The notes under the pieces: generated by a model
What the model was told of the DNA's origin: nothing
The model's input: the letters and a program-made list of their open reading frames with translations, nothing else
Databases searched by the model: none
Part shown: positions 21,416 to 47,363 of the stretch, in pieces
Layout of the letters: every line of letters starts with the position of its first letter
Numbering within the stretch: the first letter of the stretch is position 1
Source of the DNA: Paludibacter jiangxiensis
GTDB taxonomy: Bacteria > Bacteroidota > Bacteroidia > Bacteroidales > Paludibacteraceae
Direction: 5' to 3'
NCBI RefSeq assembly: GCF_001618385.1
Contig: NZ_BDCR01000001.1
Location: 744,001-808,000 of the forward strand
Length of the DNA stretch: 64,000 nucleotides
Program-made: the position numbers and the translations under genes

Positions 21416-21840
21416 CAACAATAATCATAATGAAAAACATGCTTTGAAGACAGATCAGCCTTTCATTATCTTCTGAAGAAATAAGATTCTGACGTTTGAA
21501 CCACTATCTAATAGAAACGTTAAGAAATGCTTCGCAGGAATAATTCCCTTATTTATTCAGACAGGTAATTCTGATTTTATTCGACAGCTTCTTCTACAAT
21601 GAAGAGGTTTTACGTCGTATAAAATTCTTATCACCTACTATTTAAACATTTTCTTCAAGTAAGGAGCTGATTACAGTAGCACATGCCTATCCAACACCAT
21701 AGGGATGTGATGAGACTGCATTGACATTTATGTAGATGCACTGACAGTAGAGATATTTTTTTGTATAGCTAGATAGTAAATATTTTAACCTAAAATTTAT
21801 AAGCCAATGAGAGAGACTCCCCGATAATCAAACCCGCCAA

Positions 21841-21951
21841 ATAAAAAGCGGAACAATGTTGCGACCATTGCTCCGCCCGTATCCAAGCAATACCCCCTTT
21901 GTTTCATTATACTGACCGTACAGACAGTATAATAGCGGTGTATCGTTTTGA
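21841..21951 (-). ncRNA. Candidate antisense small RNA opposite the susC leader (copy 1)
   Basis: On the minus strand a -7 element TATCTTTG (21957-21964) precedes ATCAAAACGATACACC (21937-21952), then a hairpin TTATACTG/CAGTATAA with a 10-nt loop (21907-21932), then a GC-rich stem (GCGGAGCAATG/CATTGTTCCGC, 21848-21876) followed by a T-run. The total is about 110 nt and there is no reading frame of note. Copy 2 at 41168-41282 has the same -7 element type, the same 16-nt 5' segment, a central hairpin of the same size but different sequence, and a similar terminator containing CATTGTTCCG. Both run antisense to the leader of a susC gene, about 100-200 bp upstream of its ATG. This position is like that of the DonS-type antisense RNAs known from Bacteroides polysaccharide loci. 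Confidence 0.78.
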
Positions 21952-22070
21952 TAGTGCAAAGATAATCATATTTTTACTGAATTGATTTGATGTAAAAATA
22001 ACTCTCCTTCATTCTTCTTGAATGATTCTGAACAATATCATTATTTCAATTGACCAAATTATACATACTC

Positions 22071-25000
22071 ATGAATCAAATAAAGACACATTTTTTACGG
22101 CTGTTTTTGTGCACCCTATTTATGTCGTTTATGACAGTAGGGTTCGCGCAACAAGGAAGTGCTCATAAAGTAACTGGAACCGTAGTTGATTCTAGTACAG
22201 GAGAATCACTTCCAGGTGTAAATATTATTATTTTGGGTGCAAAAGTTAAGACCGGAGTTATTTCTGACATTGACGGCCGGTTTACTATAAACGTATCTCC
22301 GGATGCTACCCTTGAATTTTCGTATGTTGGATACCAAAAAAAGAATGTTGCAATAGCCAACAAATCTGTTTTGAACGTAACTCTCGAATCTGATGTAAAA
22401 AAACTTGATGAAGTTGTAGTTGTCGGTTACGGTACCATGAAGAAGAGTGACCTGTCGGGTGCTGTATCTTCAGTTCGTTCCGATGCTCTTAAAAACTTAG
22501 CCACCAGTGATGCTGCTGCAGCTATCCAGGGTAAGGTTTCCGGTGTTCAGGTGTTAACCAATTCGGGAGCTCCTGGTCAGGGGGCAACAATCCGTGTACG
22601 TGGTTACTCTTCAAACTCGGGTAGTATCGGACCACTCCTTATTGTTGACGGTCTGAAAGTTGACAATATTCAATATCTCGATCCTTCTATGATTGAATCT
22701 ATGGAGATACTGAAAGATGCTGCTTCTGCTGCTATTTATGGTGCGGAAGCTGGTAACGGTGTTGTTTTGATCACTACTAAATCAGGAGCTAAAGGTACTT
22801 CAAGCATTTCATATGATGTCAATTTAATCAGTCAGAGCCTTGGCAGACATGCAAAACTTTTCAACGCACAGGATTTTATTGCTTACAAAACATTGTCGGG
22901 TCTTCCTATCCAAAATCAGTTAACACAAAATAAGTACGATGGAACAGATACCGACTGGTCCAAAGTAGTATTTGGTCCCGCTTTCAGCCAACAACATACA
23001 GTTACGTTTCAGGGTGGAAATAACCAGGGACATTTTTTTACGTCTCTTAACGTAACCAACAACAATGGTATTGTAAGAGGTGACAAAGATGTTTATAAAC
23101 GTATTACAGGTCAGGTTAATGCTGACTATAATATCAAACCATGGTTACAGATAGGAGGCAACAACTCTTTCGAATATTGGAATACGAAATCAGTTAGCCA
23201 GATGTCTCAGTATGGTTCATTGATGAACTGCGTGATGCAGATGGATCCGTTAACTCCTGTTTACTATTCTTCTCCGGATCAATTTGCTTCAGGAACGCTT
23301 CAGGCTTATAATGCAGGAAAGAATGTTCTCAAAGACCCAACCAATGGTCTCTACTATGCAACTTCGAAGTATGTGATCGATAATAATGGTAATCCATTGC
23401 TTCAAAGAGATCGTACGGAGGCTTCAAGTGGCGGTATTAACCTCCGTGGTATACTTTACGGAAATTTCAAACCTGTTAAGGGACTTGTAGTTACTTCTCG
23501 CTTTGGTTACCGTGTGTCACAAAGTACTTCACACAGTTATAGCACCCCGTATTATGCCACATCTCAGGCAAACAGTAATGACTATAGCATCTCAGCAAAT
23601 GCAAATACCAGTTACTACTATCAATGGGAAAACTTCGCCAATTACAATTTTACAATAGATAAGCATAACATTACGGCAATGGGTGGTATGTCTTATATCG
23701 AGAACAACTGGGATAATGTTAGCGCCAGCGCTTCGGGTCCGGATATCTTGAAAGGATACGATGCCAATTTCCGTTTTCTCGACTATGTGAATAGTAATGA
23801 CAAAACCGTTAAGAGCTTTGGTAATACTCCCGGTAAATCGTCTCAGATGGGATATTATGGACGGTTAAGTTATTCTTATGATAACAAATATATGATTCAG
23901 TCTAACTTCCGTGCCGATGCGTTCGACTCTTCTAAGTTGTCCAAAACAAACCGTTGGGGTTATTTCCCATCGTTCTCTGGAGCCTGGACCGTCAGCAACG
24001 AAAAATTCTTCCAGAATCTCATTGATGACAAAATTTTCTCTTTCCTGAAAGTTCGCGGATCGTGGGGACAGAATGGTAATATCAATGTACTCAGCGGTTA
24101 CCAGTATAGTACTACTATCAATTACAATGGGTCATGGTATCAGTATGGTGTAGACAGTCCAACTCCATCATATGGTTCATCTCCTTCAGGTTTGGCTAAC
24201 CCCAACTTGAAATGGGAAACTTCAGAACAGTTAGACTTTGGTGTTGAGATGAGATTTTTGAAAGACAAACTTTCGTTGAATGCAGGCTACTATAACAAAA
24301 AGACGAAAGACCTTCTCGTATCGATTGCTCCGGTTGCGGAAGTTGGTATAGGTAGTACTACTATTAATGGCGGTAATGTTCTTAACCGCGGTTTTGAATT
24401 CGACGCAACATGGAAAGATAATATCGGTAAAGATTTCACCTACTCTGTAAAGGCCAACTTGACAACCCTACACAATGAGGTTACTTACCTTGATCCTTCG
24501 ATTTCCCGTATTTCCGGTACTTCAGCGGGTAATAACGATATTTACACAGCATTTGAGGTTGGTCAACCGATATGGTATTTAAGAGGTTACAAGTATTTGG
24601 GTGTTAACCAAAAAACAGGTGCACCTATCTACCAGACTAAAAATGCAGACGGGGTGCCTACTTCTAATGATATGACCTATATTGGTAAAGCAATTCCTGA
24701 TTTCACATACGGTCTTACCATTAATCTGGCTTATAAAGGATTTGATATGAATATGTTTGGCACAGGTGTAACCGGCAATAGTATCTTGAATATGGCTTAT
24801 CGTGCTGATTCTCCAATGACCAATTCATTGAAGTACTACTATGACCATGCATGGACAACGACCAACACAAATGGCTCTATGCCTGATCCGGCAAAAGTAG
24901 TTAACTCTAGGATATTTTGGAGCTCTTCAGCTTCGATCTTCAATGGTGCTTACTTCAAAATCAAACAGATACAGTTAGGTTACACCCTTCCTGCATCGGT

Positions 25001-25187
25001 TAGCAAGAAGTTCCTTATCAGTAAACTGAGATGCTATGTATCTTTGGATGACTTCTTTACTTTTGCAAGTTACCCTGGAGGCGATCCTGAAACTGCTACT
25101 ACTTCTACCGCTTCCTCAGCAGGCTTTGATATGGGTACATATCCTGTGGCTAAGAAGGTTACATTTGGTTTAAACATGACATTTTAA
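22071..25187 (+). CDS. SusC-family TonB-dependent outer-membrane transporter (no STN domain)
   Basis: 1038 residues from ATG 22071; the TTG 21 bp upstream is disfavoured. Signal peptide to about residue 27 (VGFAQ). Order of parts: carboxypeptidase-regulatory-like beta domain from about 35 (GTVVDSSTGESLPGVNIIILG), TonB-box-like DEVVVVGYGTMKKSDLSGAVSSV near 115, plug domain with IRVRGYSSNSG and LKDAASAAIYGAEAGNGVVLITTKSG, then the 22-strand barrel, closing with a phenylalanine (TFGLNMTF). Imports oligosaccharides together with the SusD lipoprotein encoded 17 bp downstream. There is no N-terminal STN signalling domain and no sigma/anti-sigma gene beside it, so control must be different from that of the SusC at 37738-41061. 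Confidence 0.95.
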   Translation: MNQIKTHFLRLFLCTLFMSFMTVGFAQQGSAHKVTGTVVDSSTGESLPGVNIIILGAKVKTGVISDIDGRFTINVSPDATLEFSYVGYQKKNVAIANKSVLNVTLESDVKKLDEVVVVGYGTMKKSDLSGAVSSVRSDALKNLATSDAAAAIQGKVSGVQVLTNSGAPGQGATIRVRGYSSNSGSIGPLLIVDGLKVDNIQYLDPSMIESMEILKDAASAAIYGAEAGNGVVLITTKSGAKGTSSISYDVNLISQSLGRHAKLFNAQDFIAYKTLSGLPIQNQLTQNKYDGTDTDWSKVVFGPAFSQQHTVTFQGGNNQGHFFTSLNVTNNNGIVRGDKDVYKRITGQVNADYNIKPWLQIGGNNSFEYWNTKSVSQMSQYGSLMNCVMQMDPLTPVYYSSPDQFASGTLQAYNAGKNVLKDPTNGLYYATSKYVIDNNGNPLLQRDRTEASSGGINLRGILYGNFKPVKGLVVTSRFGYRVSQSTSHSYSTPYYATSQANSNDYSISANANTSYYYQWENFANYNFTIDKHNITAMGGMSYIENNWDNVSASASGPDILKGYDANFRFLDYVNSNDKTVKSFGNTPGKSSQMGYYGRLSYSYDNKYMIQSNFRADAFDSSKLSKTNRWGYFPSFSGAWTVSNEKFFQNLIDDKIFSFLKVRGSWGQNGNINVLSGYQYSTTINYNGSWYQYGVDSPTPSYGSSPSGLANPNLKWETSEQLDFGVEMRFLKDKLSLNAGYYNKKTKDLLVSIAPVAEVGIGSTTINGGNVLNRGFEFDATWKDNIGKDFTYSVKANLTTLHNEVTYLDPSISRISGTSAGNNDIYTAFEVGQPIWYLRGYKYLGVNQKTGAPIYQTKNADGVPTSNDMTYIGKAIPDFTYGLTINLAYKGFDMNMFGTGVTGNSILNMAYRADSPMTNSLKYYYDHAWTTTNTNGSMPDPAKVVNSRIFWSSSASIFNGAYFKIKQIQLGYTLPASVSKKFLISKLRCYVSLDDFFTFASYPGGDPETATTSTASSAGFDMGTYPVAKKVTFGLNMTF

Positions 25188-37737: not shown

Positions 37738-40700
37738 TCATATTTTTATATTGCAACCAAATGAAAAGACACTGTTGATAGGATAGTATGATGGCGCATC
37801 TCCTGTCCCAATTTGGTTTTCAGGATCCCACCCTTTATAAAAAGAGTTGAAATTGTAGAGATTTTCTCCACTAACATAAATCCGACAATATTGCAATCCA
37901 ATCTTATGCAGAATTGTTTGGGGAATGGTGTATCCTATTTGAATATTTTTTATTCTCAGGAAACTTGCGTTTCTTATCCAATAGTCGGATGTCTGAAGAT
38001 TCGGATTATTCATATTTAAAGTTTCCAGTCTTGGGTATTTGGCCCATTTATTAGGATTAGCGGTAGTCCATCTGTTATCTACCTGCCATTGTTGGATTTG
38101 CCCCCCGTTATAATAAGCATAAGCCATATAAGAGCCTATTAGTCTCTGATATCCTCCCAATCCCTGAAACAGTGCAGACAAATCAAATCCTTTAAAAGAG
38201 GCATTCAAAGTCACTCCATAATAATATTTAGGGGTACGACACCCGATAACTGTTCGATCGTTATTGGCATCCACTGAATTATCGCCATTCAAATCTTTGT
38301 ATTCGATATATCCGGGTTTCAAACTGCTTTTCGAAACTAATTGTGTAGGAGCTGCATCTATTTCCGATTGATTGACAAATAATCCATTGGTTTTGTATCC
38401 GTAAATAATGCCGATAGGCTGACCTACAATCAGGCCATTGTTGAGATCCTGCTTGGCTCCATCAGCCAATTTTTCAACAGCATTTTTTACATACGTAAAG
38501 TTGGGGTTGATACTGTATTTGAAATCCTTTCCGATATTTCCATTATATGTTAGGTTCACTTCAAAACCCTTATTAGACACGGCTCCTACGTTGGATTGTC
38601 CGACACTGCGTCCCATAATGCTGGTGTACTGAACCGAAGATAAAATGTTGTAGGTATACTTATAAAAATAATCTACGTTGGCTGTGATTTTTCCTTTGAA
38701 CAGACTAAAATCGAGCCCGGCATCTGCGACCGAAGTCGTTTCCCAGGTAATATCAGGGTTATTGTAAGTGGTGATTCTGGTGCCGGATGTAAGCGCAGCC
38801 GTACTACCCAGTACAGCATTCTCGCCCAAGGAGTATGTCTGTTGATAGGGATAGGTTCCGATATTCTGATTACCAAGCACACCCCATGAAGCTCGCAACT
38901 TAAGATTATTCACTATGTCCGACAAAGATGCTTTTTCCCAGAATTTTTCTTCGGAAATTCTCCATCCGGCAGAAAATGAAGGAAACACACCCCAACGATG
39001 GCTGGGAGCAAATCGGGAAGATCCATCATAGCGCACATTTGCCTCAAACAAATATTTGTCCATAAGCGAATAATTTGCCCGTCCAAAAAAAGACATCAAC
39101 CCCCATTCGCTAAGATAACCAGAATTTGAGGCGGAAGCACCAGACCCTGCATTCAATTCATAAAGATAATTGTTGGGAAAGGTGTTCCTATAACCATACA
39201 GGTTTTTGTATGTGTATGTCTCACTCGAAGCCCCTGCCAATAAGTTGATAGAATGAGCATGAAATTGTTTCTTATAATTAACTAATCCTTCAAATGACCT
39301 ATAAGTTGCATTGTCAGAGGTCACTGACAGAGATGCAGGGCCAACCGTTTTACTTGCATCAAAATAGGTTTGCGCAATAAAAGATTTGTTGTAGTTATTA
39401 TTATAATTAATACCAGCTTTGCCTGTAATTGTTAATCCATCGACAGGAGTTTGCCAAACCAATTGTGTATTGCCTATTATATTGGTGCTTATGTTTTTTG
39501 TGAACGATTCGCTTGATAGCCATGCTTCTGGACTATAATTGTCCTGATAACCAAAAGTTCCATCTGCCTTTTTTCCGCTATAAATAGGACCTTCACGGAC
39601 TGCATATCCGATTATACCTTCAATACTAGACGGTTGACCGTTCGGAGAATTGTAAGTGGTTGTATAGGCATCCAGGTTAACTTTCAGAGTAAGACCTTTC
39701 AGAATATTGGCATTCATATTCCATAAGATATTATATCTATCATTAGAAGTTTTTTCTGTCATCCCTGCCTGATGCATATAATTTGCCGAGCAATTATATG
39801 ACAAAGACGAATTGCCGCCTTGTACACCCAAATTATGCTTCTGCTGAAAACCCGAACCGCTATTCAGAAGCCATTTCAGATGATTGACGTTCGGATAATT
39901 ATCAGGATCCGATCCATCTTTAAATTTTTGAATCTGAGCATCTGTATAAGCAGCTGATTTTCCCATATTTGCCATAGCTTCATTATAATAAGACGCATAT
40001 TGCCAAGAAGATAGAAAATCCGGAAGTTCAGTCGGCTTTTGCCATCCGAAAGAATTGTTATAAGAAATAACTGTTTTCCCTTCGGCCCCTTTTTTAGTTT
40101 CAATTAAAATTACTCCGTTTGCAGCGCGGTTACCATATATGGAAGCAGATGCTGCATCTTTAAGGAATGAAATACTCTGTATATCATTCGGATCAACATC
40201 GTCAATATTACCTGATGTACCATCGATTAATACTAATGGAGCAGTTCCTGCACTCGAAAAAGTTCCTGTTCCTCGAAGATTTACCGATGCACTTGCTCCC
40301 GGTCTTCCTGAAGATTGCACGACGCTTAAACCTGGTACTAATCCAGCCAACGCTTGCGAAGTGTTTGAAACCGGTTTGTTTGCAATTTCTGTTGCTGTAA
40401 TTGATGCTACCGACCCTGTTAGATTCACCTTCTTTTGAGTTCCATACCCAACAACCACTACTTCTTCAAGCTTCTTTACATCGGGATCAAGAGTAATTTT
40501 CAACTGAGACTGCTTACCGATATTCACCTTTTTGGGAATATAACCAACATACGAGCAGTCGAGAACTCCTCCAAAAGGAACTTCCATCGAGAAACGACCG
40601 TCAATATCAGTAATTACTCCATTACGCGTACCTGCTATCACTATATTTACCCCTATAAGAGGATCTCCTGTATTAGCATCTACAATTGTCCCTATAATTC

Positions 40701-41061
40701 TCTGAGACTTTGAAGATACCGCTCCCGGCGAACCATTAGTTTCGTGATTATCACCACCTGTTGTAAGTACAATTTGTTTGTTCGAATCTATCTTATAACT
40801 AATACCTGTGCCCTGAAAAATTTGTTTTAGAATGGATTCAACATCCTGATTTTTAGCATTGATCGTTATGGTTTTGTCCAATCCTGGCAAGTCATTGTTG
40901 TAGAAAAAACTATAGTTGCTGTTTTTTTCAATCAGGTGGATTACCTGTCTGATTTTTTGATTTTTTGCACTAAAAGTAATTTGTGCGAAACTCACTGCTG
41001 CAAACGACACAAAGAGAGTGCATAACAGTAGCCGGTAAAGATGTTTTTTTATACGATTCAT
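37738..41061 (-). CDS. SusC-family TonB-dependent transporter with N-terminal STN signalling domain
   Basis: 1107 residues from the ATG at 41061 (MNRIKKHLYRLLLC signal peptide); a longer start adds 15 residues without support. Domain order: STN/secretin-N domain (about 27-100: ITFSAKNQKIRQVIHLIEKNSNYSFF... to QIVLTTGG), carboxypeptidase-like beta domain (IGTIVDANTGDPLIGVNIVIAG), TonB-box-like EEVVVVGYGTQKKVNLTGSV, plug (LRGTGTFSSAG, FLKDAASASIYGNRAANGVILIETKKG) and barrel. The STN domain is the hallmark of transducers that signal to a FecR anti-sigma factor, and exactly such a pair lies upstream. Imports the oligosaccharide and reports its arrival. Confidence 0.96.
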   Translation of the reverse strand: MNRIKKHLYRLLLCTLFVSFAAVSFAQITFSAKNQKIRQVIHLIEKNSNYSFFYNNDLPGLDKTITINAKNQDVESILKQIFQGTGISYKIDSNKQIVLTTGGDNHETNGSPGAVSSKSQRIIGTIVDANTGDPLIGVNIVIAGTRNGVITDIDGRFSMEVPFGGVLDCSYVGYIPKKVNIGKQSQLKITLDPDVKKLEEVVVVGYGTQKKVNLTGSVASITATEIANKPVSNTSQALAGLVPGLSVVQSSGRPGASASVNLRGTGTFSSAGTAPLVLIDGTSGNIDDVDPNDIQSISFLKDAASASIYGNRAANGVILIETKKGAEGKTVISYNNSFGWQKPTELPDFLSSWQYASYYNEAMANMGKSAAYTDAQIQKFKDGSDPDNYPNVNHLKWLLNSGSGFQQKHNLGVQGGNSSLSYNCSANYMHQAGMTEKTSNDRYNILWNMNANILKGLTLKVNLDAYTTTYNSPNGQPSSIEGIIGYAVREGPIYSGKKADGTFGYQDNYSPEAWLSSESFTKNISTNIIGNTQLVWQTPVDGLTITGKAGINYNNNYNKSFIAQTYFDASKTVGPASLSVTSDNATYRSFEGLVNYKKQFHAHSINLLAGASSETYTYKNLYGYRNTFPNNYLYELNAGSGASASNSGYLSEWGLMSFFGRANYSLMDKYLFEANVRYDGSSRFAPSHRWGVFPSFSAGWRISEEKFWEKASLSDIVNNLKLRASWGVLGNQNIGTYPYQQTYSLGENAVLGSTAALTSGTRITTYNNPDITWETTSVADAGLDFSLFKGKITANVDYFYKYTYNILSSVQYTSIMGRSVGQSNVGAVSNKGFEVNLTYNGNIGKDFKYSINPNFTYVKNAVEKLADGAKQDLNNGLIVGQPIGIIYGYKTNGLFVNQSEIDAAPTQLVSKSSLKPGYIEYKDLNGDNSVDANNDRTVIGCRTPKYYYGVTLNASFKGFDLSALFQGLGGYQRLIGSYMAYAYYNGGQIQQWQVDNRWTTANPNKWAKYPRLETLNMNNPNLQTSDYWIRNASFLRIKNIQIGYTIPQTILHKIGLQYCRIYVSGENLYNFNSFYKGWDPENQIGTGDAPSYYPINSVFSFGCNIKI

Positions 41062-41133
41062 CTGTTGAGTTTTTATACGATTAAATTTTATGGTACATAG
41101 AATCATTCCGGAAAGAATGATAGAGAGTTTTTC

Positions 41134-41161
41134 TTTGACAAAAGAAATTATCGTACATTTG
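41134..41161 (+). promoter_or_regulatory. Promoter of the antisense RNA, copy 2
   Basis: TTTG at 41134-41137 and TACATTTG at 41154-41161, spaced 16 bp (slightly short). It faces away from the susC gene, toward the antisense RNA. Confidence 0.5.
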
Positions 41162-41167
41162 CAGAAT

Positions 41168-41282
41168 CAAAACGATACACCAATGGCTGTTGATGCCTGA
41201 TAAAGACATCAATAAATGAAAAACATGAGTGTACGAATGATTACGACGGAACAGTGTTAACGGCATTGTTCCGTTTTTTTTT
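41168..41282 (+). ncRNA. Candidate antisense small RNA opposite the susC leader (copy 2)
   Basis: After the TACATTTG element comes ATCAAAACGATACACC (41166-41181), a hairpin TTGATG/CATCAA with an 11-nt loop (41190-41212), an ATGAAAAACA segment, and a strong terminator (ACGGAACAGTG/CATTGTTCCGT, 41246-41274) followed by nine T. It lies between fecR and susC, antisense to the susC leader, and ends 65 bp short of fecR. Copy 1 at 21841-21951 shares the element, the 16-nt segment, the following ATGAAA and the terminator end, while the central hairpins differ in sequence but match in size: support for a structured RNA family rather than chance. Confidence 0.82.
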
Positions 41283-41347
41283 GAGGGGTGATTTCAGGAG
41301 GATGGTTGTTTCATATTATATTCAGATTTGATAGGTTAACGAGTCAC

Positions 41348-42358
41348 TTAATCACGGCTATAGTTGAGCCTCTTTTTTGTGTTTTGTTTCAAAGTAACGA
41401 CAGAATCCTTCACGTTGTAATGAATCGGAGACGTTAAAGAGATGAGCTGCAAGACGCTTTCGAGGCTGTTATTTTTTATCTTACCACTAAAGCGTATCTG
41501 TTTAATCTGTTCCGAATCAAAGACTACCTGAATGTTATACATGCGCTCCAGCACTTTGGCAATATCTTCCAGCGTTTCCGAATCGAATGCCAGCTGATTG
41601 TTTTTCCACAATCCGGCAATTGCGGCATCGTATACCTGCACCTTATCAAAGGTATGATTGCTTTTGTTGAAAGTAATCTTCTGATTGGGCAACAATTGCG
41701 AGGTTGTTGTTTTGTCAAATACATTCACTTTCCCTTCAATCAGGGTTGTCGTAATTGCATCATCGTTGGTATAAGCCTTAACATCAAATGCGGTACCGAC
41801 CGCACGAACGGAGACTGCATTGGCCTTCACTATAAACGGGCGTTTTTTATCTTTTGCCACTTCAAAATAGGCTTCTCCCTCAAGAGCAATAATCCGGTCG
41901 TGCTGATTGTAACTCTTATCGTAACGAATGGAACTACCGGAGTTAAGCCACACCTTTGTTCCATCCGGCAATTGCAGGTTTGCCTTCTGTCCATTTTCCA
42001 CGCTCACAATCATTTCCTTATTATTGTCGTGAGCTAAATTCGCAATCAGCAAATAGGCTCCTACTCCCAGCATAACAGGGATGACTGCGGCCGCGGCATA
42101 CTTCATCAGCTTGCCGAAAGGCAAAGACCACCGGTGACGGCCGGGACTCATTTCACTCCGGATATTCTCCAGCATGCTATTCTGAAGAGCAGCATCCATC
42201 GAAGCCGCAGCTTCTTCCCACTTTTCGGCATAGAAACCGGAAAGTTTCTCTTTGGTGTCGGGTTGGCAAAACCACTCCGTCAGCCGGCGGGTTTCTTCGG
42301 AAGTTGCTTCTTTCCTGAGGAACTTCTCCAGGAGCTTATTGTAGTCGTTTTCGGTCAT
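41348..42358 (-). CDS. FecR-family anti-sigma factor
   Basis: 336 residues. The N-terminal cytoplasmic part (about 1-80) carries the sigma-binding region, TM helix at about 87-107 (YAAAAVIPVMLGVGAYLLI), then the periplasmic FecR domain (NGQKANLQLPDGTKVWLNSGSSIRYD, ALEGEAYFEVAKDKKRPFIVKA, VRAVGTAFDVKAY) and a C-terminal STN-like domain (DIAKVLERMYNIQVVFDSEQIKQIRFSGKI) that would contact the STN of SusC. It holds the ECF sigma factor inactive until the SusC transducer is occupied. Sigma gene ends 102 bp upstream. Confidence 0.95.
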   Translation of the reverse strand: MTENDYNKLLEKFLRKEATSEETRRLTEWFCQPDTKEKLSGFYAEKWEEAAASMDAALQNSMLENIRSEMSPGRHRWSLPFGKLMKYAAAAVIPVMLGVGAYLLIANLAHDNNKEMIVSVENGQKANLQLPDGTKVWLNSGSSIRYDKSYNQHDRIIALEGEAYFEVAKDKKRPFIVKANAVSVRAVGTAFDVKAYTNDDAITTTLIEGKVNVFDKTTTSQLLPNQKITFNKSNHTFDKVQVYDAAIAGLWKNNQLAFDSETLEDIAKVLERMYNIQVVFDSEQIKQIRFSGKIKNNSLESVLQLISLTSPIHYNVKDSVVTLKQNTKKRLNYSRD

Positions 42359-42460: not shown

Positions 42461-43030
42461 TTACTGAAGGAAAAACAGAATACCTGCAAGCGCCACATGA
42501 GGCTTGAGGTGTTTTTTCAGAAAATGGATGGAACGGGTGATCTGGGTCTCTACTGTTTTTTCGGAAATAGAGAGTTTTTGGGCTATTTCTTTGTTGGATA
42601 ATCCCTGACGGCGGCTTAGCAAAAAGATTTCCCTGCGTGATGGCGGCAATTGCTCAATCAATTCGGCAATCAGTTTTTCAAGAAACTGATAATCGAGTGT
42701 TTCCTCTGCCGATATTTCGGTCACGGATTGAAATTTTTGCACATATTCTTCGTACCGGCTGGCAAGAAGCATCTTTTCGGTTTGACGATACACCAGATTT
42801 TGTGCGATGGTGTAGACATATGCAGAAAAGCTTTTAGAAGTGTCTATGGTTGCGCGGTGTTCCCATATCGACAGAAAGACATTCTGGGTCAGATCCTGAG
42901 CCAGAGTTTTGTCGTAAAGAGTCGACATAATAAAATTGTACACCCTGGCATTGTACTTCCAAAAGATGGCTTCAAAAGCATCGGGATCCCCTTTTGTCAG
43001 ACGATAAAGTATGTCATTATCAGTCCCCAA
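42461..43030 (-). CDS. ECF sigma-70 factor
   Basis: 189 residues starting at TTG 43030: there is no ATG between it and an in-frame stop at 43049-43051, and the next internal methionine would delete much of region 2. Region 2 reads DPDAFEAIFWKYNARVYNFIMSTLYDKTLAQDLTQNVFLSIWEHR, region 4 reads LPPSRREIFLLSRRQGLSNKEIAQKLSISEKTVETQITRSI. It is of the Bacteroidota type linked to FecR and drives the adjoining SusC/SusD operon. A -33/-7 promoter lies upstream at 43060-43090. Confidence 0.93.
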   Translation of the reverse strand: MGTDNDILYRLTKGDPDAFEAIFWKYNARVYNFIMSTLYDKTLAQDLTQNVFLSIWEHRATIDTSKSFSAYVYTIAQNLVYRQTEKMLLASRYEEYVQKFQSVTEISAEETLDYQFLEKLIAELIEQLPPSRREIFLLSRRQGLSNKEIAQKLSISEKTVETQITRSIHFLKKHLKPHVALAGILFFLQ

Positions 43031-45116: not shown

Positions 45117-47363
45117 ATGATTGAGTCAATAAGTTTAAAAAACGTTGCTTCTTTTGATTCAACAGGCATTCAGATTGACAACTTAAAGAGAGTCAACTTT
45201 ATATATGGATCTAATGGTTGTGGTAAAACTACTATTTCAAATTTTTTACTAAATCCAACCGATCCTAAATTTCAAAATTGTTTTGCAACGTGGAAAAATG
45301 GAACAGAATTAAAAACGTTAGTTTACAATAAAGAATTTAGAGTTAGAAATTTCGACAAAGGGAAATTAGAAGGTGTTTTTACGCTTGGAGAAGCTACAAA
45401 AGAACAGAAAAGAATAATTACAGAAAAAAATGAACAACTAAAACAGTTTAAAATTGAAGGCGAGAGAATCCGGATTTCGCTGACTCAACAAGAAGAAAAG
45501 CTAAGTTTTTTAGAAACTGATTTTAAGGAGTTTGCATGGACAAAAATTTACAAGAAATATCAAAGCATATTCAAAGATGCTTTTGTTGGCTCAATGAAGT
45601 CTGGCGACCTTTTCAAAACTAGACTATTACTGGAATTTACGAATAACAAAGGAAAACTAAAAACAATTGATGAGTTGAAAGAAAAAGCTTCAACTATTTT
45701 CGTAGAGACACCACAAAACTTAAATTTCATTAGCCAAATCAATTTTGATAGAATTATTGAGATTGAAAAAGACTCTATCTGGAAAAGAATTATCGTTGGC
45801 AAAGCTGATGTCGATATAGCGAAACTTATTCAAAGACTTAACATAAGTGACTGGGTAAATCAAGGACGAACTTATGTACAAGAAAGTAACATTTGTCCAT
45901 TCTGTCAGCAACATACTATTACCGACAAATTCAAAAATCAATTAGAAAGTTTTTTTGATGAAACTTATTTAATGGATATTGAATCGCTAAAGATATTAAA
46001 ACAAGAATACAGTAGTTTAATCCAGACTGTTATAAATGAATTGAATAGCACTGAGCTAACTCAGAAAGAATTAAAGAATTCCAAATTGAATCTCGATAAA
46101 TTCGCTTCATTACTCAAAACTTTAATTAGCCAAAATACGACTAATAATGAATATCTAAATAACAAGCTCAAAGAACCTAGTAGAAGCGTTGAACTAATAA
46201 GTCAAAAAGAATTACTGACTCAAATATTCGAACTTATTTCAACTGCAAACAATGAAATAAAGCAACATAATGATATTGTTTTGGATTATTCCAACCAACG
46301 TAATGATTTGATAAATGCTATTTGGAAGTATTTAATTGATGAATTTAAAGGAGAGATTGAAAAATTCAGTACAACAAAAAAAGGCCTTGAGGCAGGACAT
46401 AATTCTATTGAAGCCCAATTGAAAAATAAGTTGAAGGATTACTCTAATTTGAATTCTGAAATAAAAGAACTAAGCAAAAACGTAACAAGTATACAGCCTA
46501 CAATTAACGAAATAAATCGACTTCTTAAATCTTATGGATTCAATAGCTTCGAGATTGTACCGGCAGAAGAAGACGGCTTTTACAAAATACAACGAGAAAA
46601 TGGAGAAATTGCGGAATCAACTTTAAGTGAAGGAGAGATTACCTTTATCACATTTTTGTATTTTCTGCAGCATGCAAAAGGAGGTTCTACAGAAGATAAC
46701 GTAAATGAAGAAAGAATTCTTGTAATTGATGACCCTATTTCTAGCTTAGACAGCAATGTCCTTTTTGTAGTCAGTACTTTGATAAAAGAAATTCTGAAAG
46801 AGGTTAAAAGTGACAAAGGAAATATCAAACAAGTAATTTTGTTGACCCATAATGTTTATTTCCATAAGGAAGTTTCTTATGAAGGCCTTAATCGGAAAGG
46901 TGAAAAGCCTCAATTTTGGATTCTTCGGAAAAACTACAAATTCTCAAAGATTCAACATTATAACGATCAAAATCCAATCCAATCTTCTTATGAATTACTT
47001 TGGCGTGACATAAAGGAATGGGAAAAAAATTCTGGAATTACAATTCAAAATACCATGCGAAGGATTCTTGAAAACTTCTTTAGCATTCTAGGTAACAAAC
47101 GTGACGATTACTTAATTGGGAAATTCCAGACTCAAGAAGAAAGAGAAATATGTCGATCACTTCTAAGCTGGGTTAACGAGGGTTCACATACATTTTCGGA
47201 TGATTTGTATATTGAAACACCTGATGGAATGATTGTAAAGTATTTAAATGTATTTAAAGCCATTTTTAAACATACAAAAAACATAGGTCATTACAACATG
47301 ATGATGGGTATTAGTGATGAAATAGAAACTGAACAAGAAGTTGAAATAGCATTAGCAAATTGA
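45117..47363 (+). CDS. AAA_13-family ABC-type ATPase with zinc hook, RloC/PrrC-like
   Basis: 748 residues, no signal peptide. Walker A at 31-38 (GSNGCGKT), a coiled-coil region, CPFC at 260-263 (zinc-hook-like), further coiled coils to about 480, ABC signature LSEGE at 503-507, Walker B ILVIDDP at 534-540, H-loop THN at 577-579. The C-terminal part has R648-x3-E652 and H691 in SLLSWVNEGSH, an arrangement reminiscent of the Arg-Glu-His triad of PrrC/RloC anticodon nucleases (R-x3-E then His), though similar residues occur in AAA_13 ATPases of unknown activity. RloC proteins are phage-defence tRNA nucleases of similar length with a zinc hook. The gene is far more AT-rich than its neighbours and has no partner gene. 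Insert status is argued by the flanking duplicated terminator. Confidence 0.8.
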   Translation: MIESISLKNVASFDSTGIQIDNLKRVNFIYGSNGCGKTTISNFLLNPTDPKFQNCFATWKNGTELKTLVYNKEFRVRNFDKGKLEGVFTLGEATKEQKRIITEKNEQLKQFKIEGERIRISLTQQEEKLSFLETDFKEFAWTKIYKKYQSIFKDAFVGSMKSGDLFKTRLLLEFTNNKGKLKTIDELKEKASTIFVETPQNLNFISQINFDRIIEIEKDSIWKRIIVGKADVDIAKLIQRLNISDWVNQGRTYVQESNICPFCQQHTITDKFKNQLESFFDETYLMDIESLKILKQEYSSLIQTVINELNSTELTQKELKNSKLNLDKFASLLKTLISQNTTNNEYLNNKLKEPSRSVELISQKELLTQIFELISTANNEIKQHNDIVLDYSNQRNDLINAIWKYLIDEFKGEIEKFSTTKKGLEAGHNSIEAQLKNKLKDYSNLNSEIKELSKNVTSIQPTINEINRLLKSYGFNSFEIVPAEEDGFYKIQRENGEIAESTLSEGEITFITFLYFLQHAKGGSTEDNVNEERILVIDDPISSLDSNVLFVVSTLIKEILKEVKSDKGNIKQVILLTHNVYFHKEVSYEGLNRKGEKPQFWILRKNYKFSKIQHYNDQNPIQSSYELLWRDIKEWEKNSGITIQNTMRRILENFFSILGNKRDDYLIGKFQTQEEREICRSLLSWVNEGSHTFSDDLYIETPDGMIVKYLNVFKAIFKHTKNIGHYNMMMGISDEIETEQEVEIALAN

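Follow-up and report, generated by a model that had tools for sequence, protein, structure and literature searches.

Why should the gap between an anti-sigma gene and the susC gene that follows it carry the marks of a small RNA on the opposite strand, and why should the first 16 nucleotides of that RNA recur unchanged ~19 kb away? The gap lies in a 64,000-nucleotide stretch of the Paludibacter jiangxiensis genome, which as a whole we call the window. The initial annotation had seen in it one of two antisense small RNAs, in a configuration known for cis-antisense control of polysaccharide loci, sharing a 16-mer that could in principle let each of them act on the locus of the other. Our analysis upholds the first half of this proposal, in that member 2 is likely to be an antisense-oriented small RNA placed in a configuration of this kind, the DonS-like one, and does not support the second half, cross-talk as the reason for the common 16-mer. 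By position, strand and predicted length, member 2 is a DonS-type PUL antisense RNA, and we favor, with a probability of roughly 58%, the reading that it is cis-encoded and would dampen its own susC.

The neighborhood of the RNA is the one that had been proposed, and domain matches confirm both of its flanks. Upstream stands the anti-sigma gene fecR (41348–42358, minus strand; PF04773 and PF16344), preceded by an ECF sigma factor gene recognized by its domain match (42461–43030, minus); downstream is the putative target, a transducer-type susC of 1107 aa (37738–41061, minus) with STN, CarboxypepD and Plug domains. Genes nearby encode SusD, an alpha-L-fucosidase, a GH43/GH32-like enzyme, an arabinofuranosidase, a pectinesterase and an acetylesterase-like protein, and because of this enzyme set a pectin-type glycan is the likely substrate. 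The susC beside member 1 (22071–25187, plus) has no STN domain in the domain search and is followed by susD; the genome holds three FecR matches, none of which adjoins member 1, so the term orphan is right for this gene. On the plus strand next to the member 2 PUL, 45117–47363 encodes a 748-aa AAA_13 protein (PF13166, E 1.2e-175), from a family that includes anticodon-nuclease-type ATPases.

Every element that had been named for the RNA is found at its site on the plus strand: TTTG at 41134–41137, the box TACATTTG at 41154–41161, the 16-mer, ATGAAAAACA and a strong terminator, together with the hairpin TTGATG/CATCAA and its 11-nt loop. We take TACATTTG, which lies 92 nt 5' of the susC start codon, as the −7 box. 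The +1 is placed 5 nt past the TTTG of this box and is uncertain by 1–2 nt; the distance comes from the Flavobacterium TAnnTTGY box at −12 to −5, as given in the available text of PMC9723704, and is thus the rule of another host. On this basis, the predicted RNA is 117 nt long (41166–41282, plus), begins with the 16-mer ATCAAAACGATACACC (41166–41181) and ends with an intrinsic terminator (41245–41282) made of a 14-bp stem and nine T (41274–41282). The minor elements are less constant: the TTTG near −33, a possible −33 element, is there in the sequence but reads TTTT in the ortholog of genome G114 and is absent from member 1, and ATGAAAAACA is present in member 2 but lost in the same ortholog. 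A peptide read from ATGAAAAACA was rejected for the loss of its ATG in that ortholog. An 11-codon frame from the next ATG is, by eye, open in both member 2 and the G114 ortholog, no counterpart of it was noticed in member 1, and it is unlikely that the member 2 RNA encodes a small peptide. Within the 64-kb window, Rfam gave no match at the gathering score.

The sister RNA, member 1, is predicted at 21843–21952 on the minus strand (110 nt), 5' of the orphan susC. Its −7 box, TATCTTTG (21957–21964, minus; 106 nt 5' of its susC start codon), ends 4 nt before the 16-mer, which is the spacing of TACATTTG in member 2. The 16-nt segment is indeed identical in the two, as the initial annotation had it, and falls at about +1 to +16 of each predicted RNA. 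It occurs exactly twice in the window, for which shuffles yield 0.05 matches at up to two mismatches, and exactly twice in the whole genome, both times at members 1 and 2; a further four places in the genome match with two mismatches and look coding by eye. The segment is constant in four sequences, the two members and one ortholog of each, and the sequence downstream of it diverges between the members; just ahead of it, bases −2/−1 vary (CT, GA and AT in the four sequences) and the preceding CA is constant. With one mismatch allowed, 200 family genomes returned 38 places in 31 genomes, four of them, by eye, members in three genomes; several of the other places look, again by eye, like unrelated palindromic hairpins and were set aside. 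Other loci suggested, post hoc, a 5' core in common (TAnnTTTGC, six bases, AAAACRAT); it matched 119 of 392 Bacteroidales genomes and was dropped as unspecific, its reversed control giving far fewer matches, as expected if ordinary promoters match the core. The likeness of the two loci extends beyond the RNAs: the SusC signal peptides (22071–22130 and 41061–41002) share the pattern MNxIKxHxxRLxLCTLFxSF despite the different domain content of the proteins, and belong to a common block that begins at the RNA terminator and extends into coding sequence.

None of the 200 dinucleotide shuffles of either RNA folds as well as the RNA itself (z −4.95 for member 2 and −5.37 for member 1). In each, most of the 16-mer is predicted to pair with the segment before the terminator and to close a stem around an inner hairpin, and the partner segments are not the same in the two members. 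In the predicted fold of member 2, the 16-mer, rather than being exposed, is largely paired with 41229–41241 (plus), the 3' arm of the closing stem P1, which is based on the MFE and centroid structures and on shuffles; the internal hairpin P2 (41188–41214, plus) is unchanged in the G114 ortholog. The mean predicted pairing of the 16-mer within the two RNAs is 0.72 and 0.63, and among 300 mid-shuffles this pairing was reached by 1%, 1%, 0.3% and 1.7% (members 1 and 2 and orthologs 1 and 2, respectively). The total fold energy of the same four RNAs was reached by 1.7, 2.7, 12 and 9.7% of mid-shuffled and by 7, 2, 6 and 11% of 16-mer-shuffled sequences, where both kinds of shuffle preserve the single-base and not the dinucleotide content; in these models, total energy is the weaker control for the closing stem and less decisive than the pairing of the 16-mer. 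The z score of the RNA strand lies below that of the leader strand in all four sequences, by a clear margin in three of them and by a small one in the fourth (−3.16 vs. −2.91). The substitutions can be read on the same two strands: member 2 and its ortholog differ in a linker, where the T-run ends and at a single A-U pair, which becomes G-U on the RNA strand and would be A-C on the leader strand, and member 1 and its ortholog differ by one similar change in the closing stem, with G-U retained on the RNA strand. Four pairs of the inner hairpin of member 1 are lost in its ortholog. As far as sequence comparison goes, the strand bias of folds and substitutions leans towards selection on the small RNA.

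Of the eight genus genomes examined, G000 carries both blocks, G078 that of member 1 and G114 that of member 2. Each of the solitary copies, member 1 in G078 and member 2 in G114, retains the 16-mer, and the partner locus is therefore not needed for its presence; as evidence of constraint, retention at ~92% overall identity says little. No member 2 was detected in G078 (completeness 97%), nor any FecR with more than 38% identity to that of member 2; no member 1 was detected in G114, an absence that is less sure because the completeness of that genome is 94%. The FecR of G114 is 97% identical to the member 2 FecR over residues 90–336. Along the RNA of member 2, 112 of 118 alignment columns are identical to the G114 ortholog (95%), while the comparison of member 1 with its ortholog gives 83/94 identical positions for the RNA body, 38/38 for the promoter and 544/580 for the start of susC; terminators are retained in the orthologs of both. 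In a related locus of G060, a genome of the same genus (FecR 64%), the gap contains no 16-mer and no antisense box. Elsewhere in the genus, the anti-sigma loci L247 and L253 (genomes G033 and G104) carry another antisense box and hairpin in their gaps, and are alike in this.

The protein encoded downstream seems to have had a different history. Over the stretch compared, fecR is identical between the window and G114 at 529 of 543 nt (97%), and SusC identity between the same two falls from 93% over residues 1–30 to 72% over 31–120, 65% over 121–200 and then 25 to 50%. The window SusC is a mosaic, G114-like in residues 1–200 and 67–80% identical to a Prolixibacteraceae SusC in residues 201–1107; the first 200 residues of the latter are only 27–36% identical to the window SusC. 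Because FecR and the RNA are conserved while SusC diverges beyond its N terminus, the SusC barrel appears to have been replaced while the regulatory block stayed as it was. Such an exchange would suit a regulator that touches leader sequence only: if this is true of the RNA, the block formed of the anti-sigma gene, RNA, leader, signal peptide and STN domain could therefore have stayed constant during the swap.

Antisense pairing presupposes that the susC transcript reaches across the small RNA gene. Within the window, TTAACCTA is found at the two susC loci and nowhere else, marking the putative leader start regions at 41332–41339 (minus; 278 nt before the ATG) in the member 2 locus and at 21785–21792 (plus; 286 nt before the ATG at 22071) for the orphan susC. 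For a susC of B. thetaiotaomicron, the available text of PMC11501099 describes an ECF-dependent 5' end that maps 291 nt upstream, falls within the anti-sigma gene and lacks a housekeeping consensus; by this analogy and from the motifs, both window leaders probably start ~280 nt upstream of the ATG. With a start as in B. thetaiotaomicron, the leader would hold the full complement of the RNA, at ~nt 58–174, and we infer the overlap of the two transcripts from these leader motifs and from the analogy with what is given in PMC11501099; if susC instead started downstream of the 16-mer, the two RNAs would not overlap. Between the RNA promoter and susC lies AACTCTC with the hairpin ATCATTC..GAATGAT (41101–41129, minus), which the alignment finds in common with member 1, and the spacing from the 16-mer to the next common element differs by 11 nt between the members. 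With boxes this far ahead of the start codon (92 and 106 nt), the RNAs would cover the distal susC leader only. In Bacteroidales loci, the stretch after fecR holds a further regularity: among the matches listed, GCCTATG is found in 17 of 50 sequences, namely 49 stretches after fecR and the stretch before member 1, against 0.2 expected from first-order resampling; the highest count for any 7-mer in the resampled sets was 18. Counted over the 91 anti-sigma loci among the matches listed, it occurs in 17 and its reversal or reverse complement in none; by eye, it frequently stands ~11–18 nt past AACC, and both window loci have degenerate forms only. GCCTATG after fecR may be an ECF promoter, and the regularity offers a candidate for one. 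A leader switch by self-pairing, suggested by the resemblance of the reverse 16-mer to the complement of the susC start region, was dropped because the partners differ among the four leaders folded, only the G114 leader pairing the reverse 16-mer with the start of susC.

The arrangement is not a peculiarity of one genus. Our Bacteroidales sample consisted, among the matches listed, of 91 anti-sigma loci from 60 genomes, made up of the three of the window's genome, 29 further ones and 59 of 60 hand-picked rows (L126 was too short). Among the matches listed, 54 anti-sigma genes are followed by a gap of 70 nt or more; in 21 of these gaps an antisense TAnnTTTG coincides exactly with the start codon of the next gene, and in 28 it does so with one mismatch allowed; any other offset of the box in these long gaps was found once each, and none of the 33 listed gaps shorter than 70 nt has the box at the start codon. 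Among the same listed matches, an antisense terminator accompanies 19 of the 21 boxed long gaps vs. 12 of the 33 other long gaps, and the predicted lengths are 67–143 nt, with 13 of 19 inside the published range of 78–128. The cross-table behind these counts omits L044 (the window's own locus, its start mis-called) as well as L122, L160 and L162 (no usable next gene) and includes rows in which the next gene is not a SusC (e.g., L095, L119, L149 and L179), and many rows come from one genome and are not independent, so that p-values overstate independence. We read the regularity of the box at the start codon, which is an observation of this analysis and not a published criterion, as the DonS-type arrangement recovered from sequence alone. 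Members 1 and 2 deviate from it, with boxes 106 and 92 nt 5' of the start codon and the AACTCTC-hairpin between. Taken as a rule for sequences, an antisense box at the start codon, a terminator after ~67–143 nt and GCCTATG after fecR offer a way of annotating such RNAs. Of the 33 TonB-receptor starts examined in the window's genome, 4 combine an antisense box with an antisense terminator in the stretch scanned: members 1 and 2, an ECF locus on contig C4, and L059. The site on contig C4 (L045/L080/L251; ~685.7–686.1 kb), at another FecR/susC locus, is a third DonS-like candidate, with its box 237 nt 5' of the start codon and a 5' end unlike that of members 1 and 2. L059 (contig C1, 947.9–951.2 kb) is a TonB-receptor start with the antisense box and a strong antisense terminator at or near the start codon, and its hairpin may simply be the terminator of the upstream gene.

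If the RNA belongs to a recurrent type, its constant first 16 nucleotides still call for an explanation. That they are a seed through which each RNA acts on the susC leader of the other locus, so tying the orphan SusC/SusD to the sigma locus, now looks quite unlikely. The pairing itself is available on paper, as had been suggested: the 16-mer fits the 5' ends of the RNAs, both leaders probably contain its complement, and each RNA could form 16 perfect pairs with the leader of the other locus in either direction (−22.9 kcal/mol). The suggested RNA–RNA pairing prediction, however, finds the cross duplexes far weaker than the cognate ones (−82.9/−78.8 vs. −205.8/−213.2 kcal/mol, with accessibility ignored), most of the 16-mer is taken up by internal pairs in each RNA, and G078 and G114 retain one member each with its 16-mer, no partner having been detected; what lacks support is the cross-talk as the explanation of the common segment. 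In the window's own genome such cross-talk is possible, and nothing here requires it. A 5' seed acting in trans on unlinked mRNAs, as in FopS, is rather unlikely too: the 5' end is constant between otherwise diverged RNAs, and three RRM_1 proteins, candidates for RbpB-like partners, are encoded in the genome, yet no target rose above shuffles among the start regions of 36 window genes and 33 TonB-receptor genes (69 in all; for some of the receptor genes the start codon is uncertain), where the mean was −6.07 against −6.53 for shuffled seeds and 78% of 200 shuffles were as good, and the four two-mismatch places mentioned above have the look of coding sequence.

The remaining alternatives do away with antisense action of the RNA. 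The 16-mer could be a DNA element, the site of a regulator or a stretch of the susC promoter (read as GGTGTATCGTTTTGAT on the reverse complement), with divergent promoters and no overlap of RNAs, and we consider this unlikely. In its favor, a short block is perfectly conserved and nearly abuts the conserved promoter box, and the block contains CGT, a triplet reported for the Flavobacterium ECF-type −10 region in the available text of PMC9723704; against this, no second conserved box stands at a fixed distance, the spacing differing by those 11 nt, the putative susC start is ~280 nt upstream, and the z score of the RNA strand is the lower one in four of four sequences, if by little in one. The initial annotation had itself named a site for a protein only as the outcome contrary to its proposal; this is weakened because the conserved stretch coincides with the 5' end predicted for the RNA and takes part in a stem, and still only two variable bases part it from the conserved promoter box. 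Finally, there may be no transcript, or a nonfunctional one carried along with a duplicated regulatory block, which we hold to be improbable. It would agree with the narrow distribution (each member in two of the eight genus genomes), with the G060 locus, which lacks the 16-mer and the antisense box, and with the decay of the inner hairpin of member 1 in its ortholog, and is countered by fold z scores near −5, by terminators retained in both orthologs and by the recurrence of the arrangement at the level of the order.

We thus return to a cis-encoded DonS-type RNA acting on its own susC. The promoter box, predicted structure, terminator, position, orthologs and recurrence come from the sequence, and we infer transcription, the start of the leader, repression and the step of action; counted against this reading are the decayed hairpin of member 1, the less-conserved RNA body and the G060 locus without a box. 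The RNA would have a housekeeping-type promoter of its own within the susC leader and would be complementary to ~nt 58–174 of that leader, which itself would be ~278 nt long and begin close to where fecR ends, driven by the ECF sigma factor. Pairing might start at the 16-nt 5' end or at the hairpin, and the paired susC transcript would then be destabilized or stopped prematurely; the RNA falls short of the start codon and so would not directly hide the ribosome site. Leaky susC expression would in this way be held down up to the point at which release of the sigma factor lets susC mRNA exceed the RNA in number. A more specific version, in which the constant 16-nt 5' end is a seed gated by the closing stem, controls the distal leader and, where both copies exist, links the orphan SusC/SusD to the sigma-controlled PUL, is a tentative suggestion and on present grounds a doubtful one.

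DonS-type antisense RNAs of Bacteroides PULs were reportedly described by Cao et al. in 2016. According to the available texts, such RNAs run divergently to susC and reduce its expression (PMC7366714, PMC10994844), correlations between them and their PULs are positive as well as negative (PMC10994844), and the mechanism of DonS is described as unknown (PMC7366714, PMC11697453). Members 1 and 2 share with them the cis position, upstream of and divergent to susC in a PUL, and a similar size, the published RNAs being 78–128 nt long in the text available and the members predicted at 117 and 110 nt with a promoter and terminator of their own; many such PULs are likewise under ECF/anti-sigma control. 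What differs here is that the boxes are 92 and 106 nt upstream, that two paralogs have the same first 16 nt, and that member 1 serves a susC without neighboring sigma and anti-sigma genes. CopA and CopT, a classical antisense pair with mirrored folds, likewise are two complementary structured RNAs from one locus, whereas the present RNAs are chromosomal, PUL-linked and without a demonstrated kissing loop. With the FopS family (RF04319) and RbpB of B. thetaiotaomicron, the members have in common paralogous RNAs with a shared 5' segment, a susC target, putative in the members, and RRM proteins, here the three RbpB-like candidates, but FopS pairs with start-codon regions in trans and has another 5' sequence (both as far as the available text of PMC11697453 goes). 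The RF04319 model scored 17.6 bits against a cut-off of 56, at 41067–41137 and thus outside the RNA, and an open-library literature search returned no paper on these two RNAs. With identical 5' ends at an ECF locus and an orphan susC in one genome, the pair permits a direct test of cis vs. trans action of such RNAs. The kind of regulator is already known in gut bacteria; a pair with identical 5' ends is unusual.
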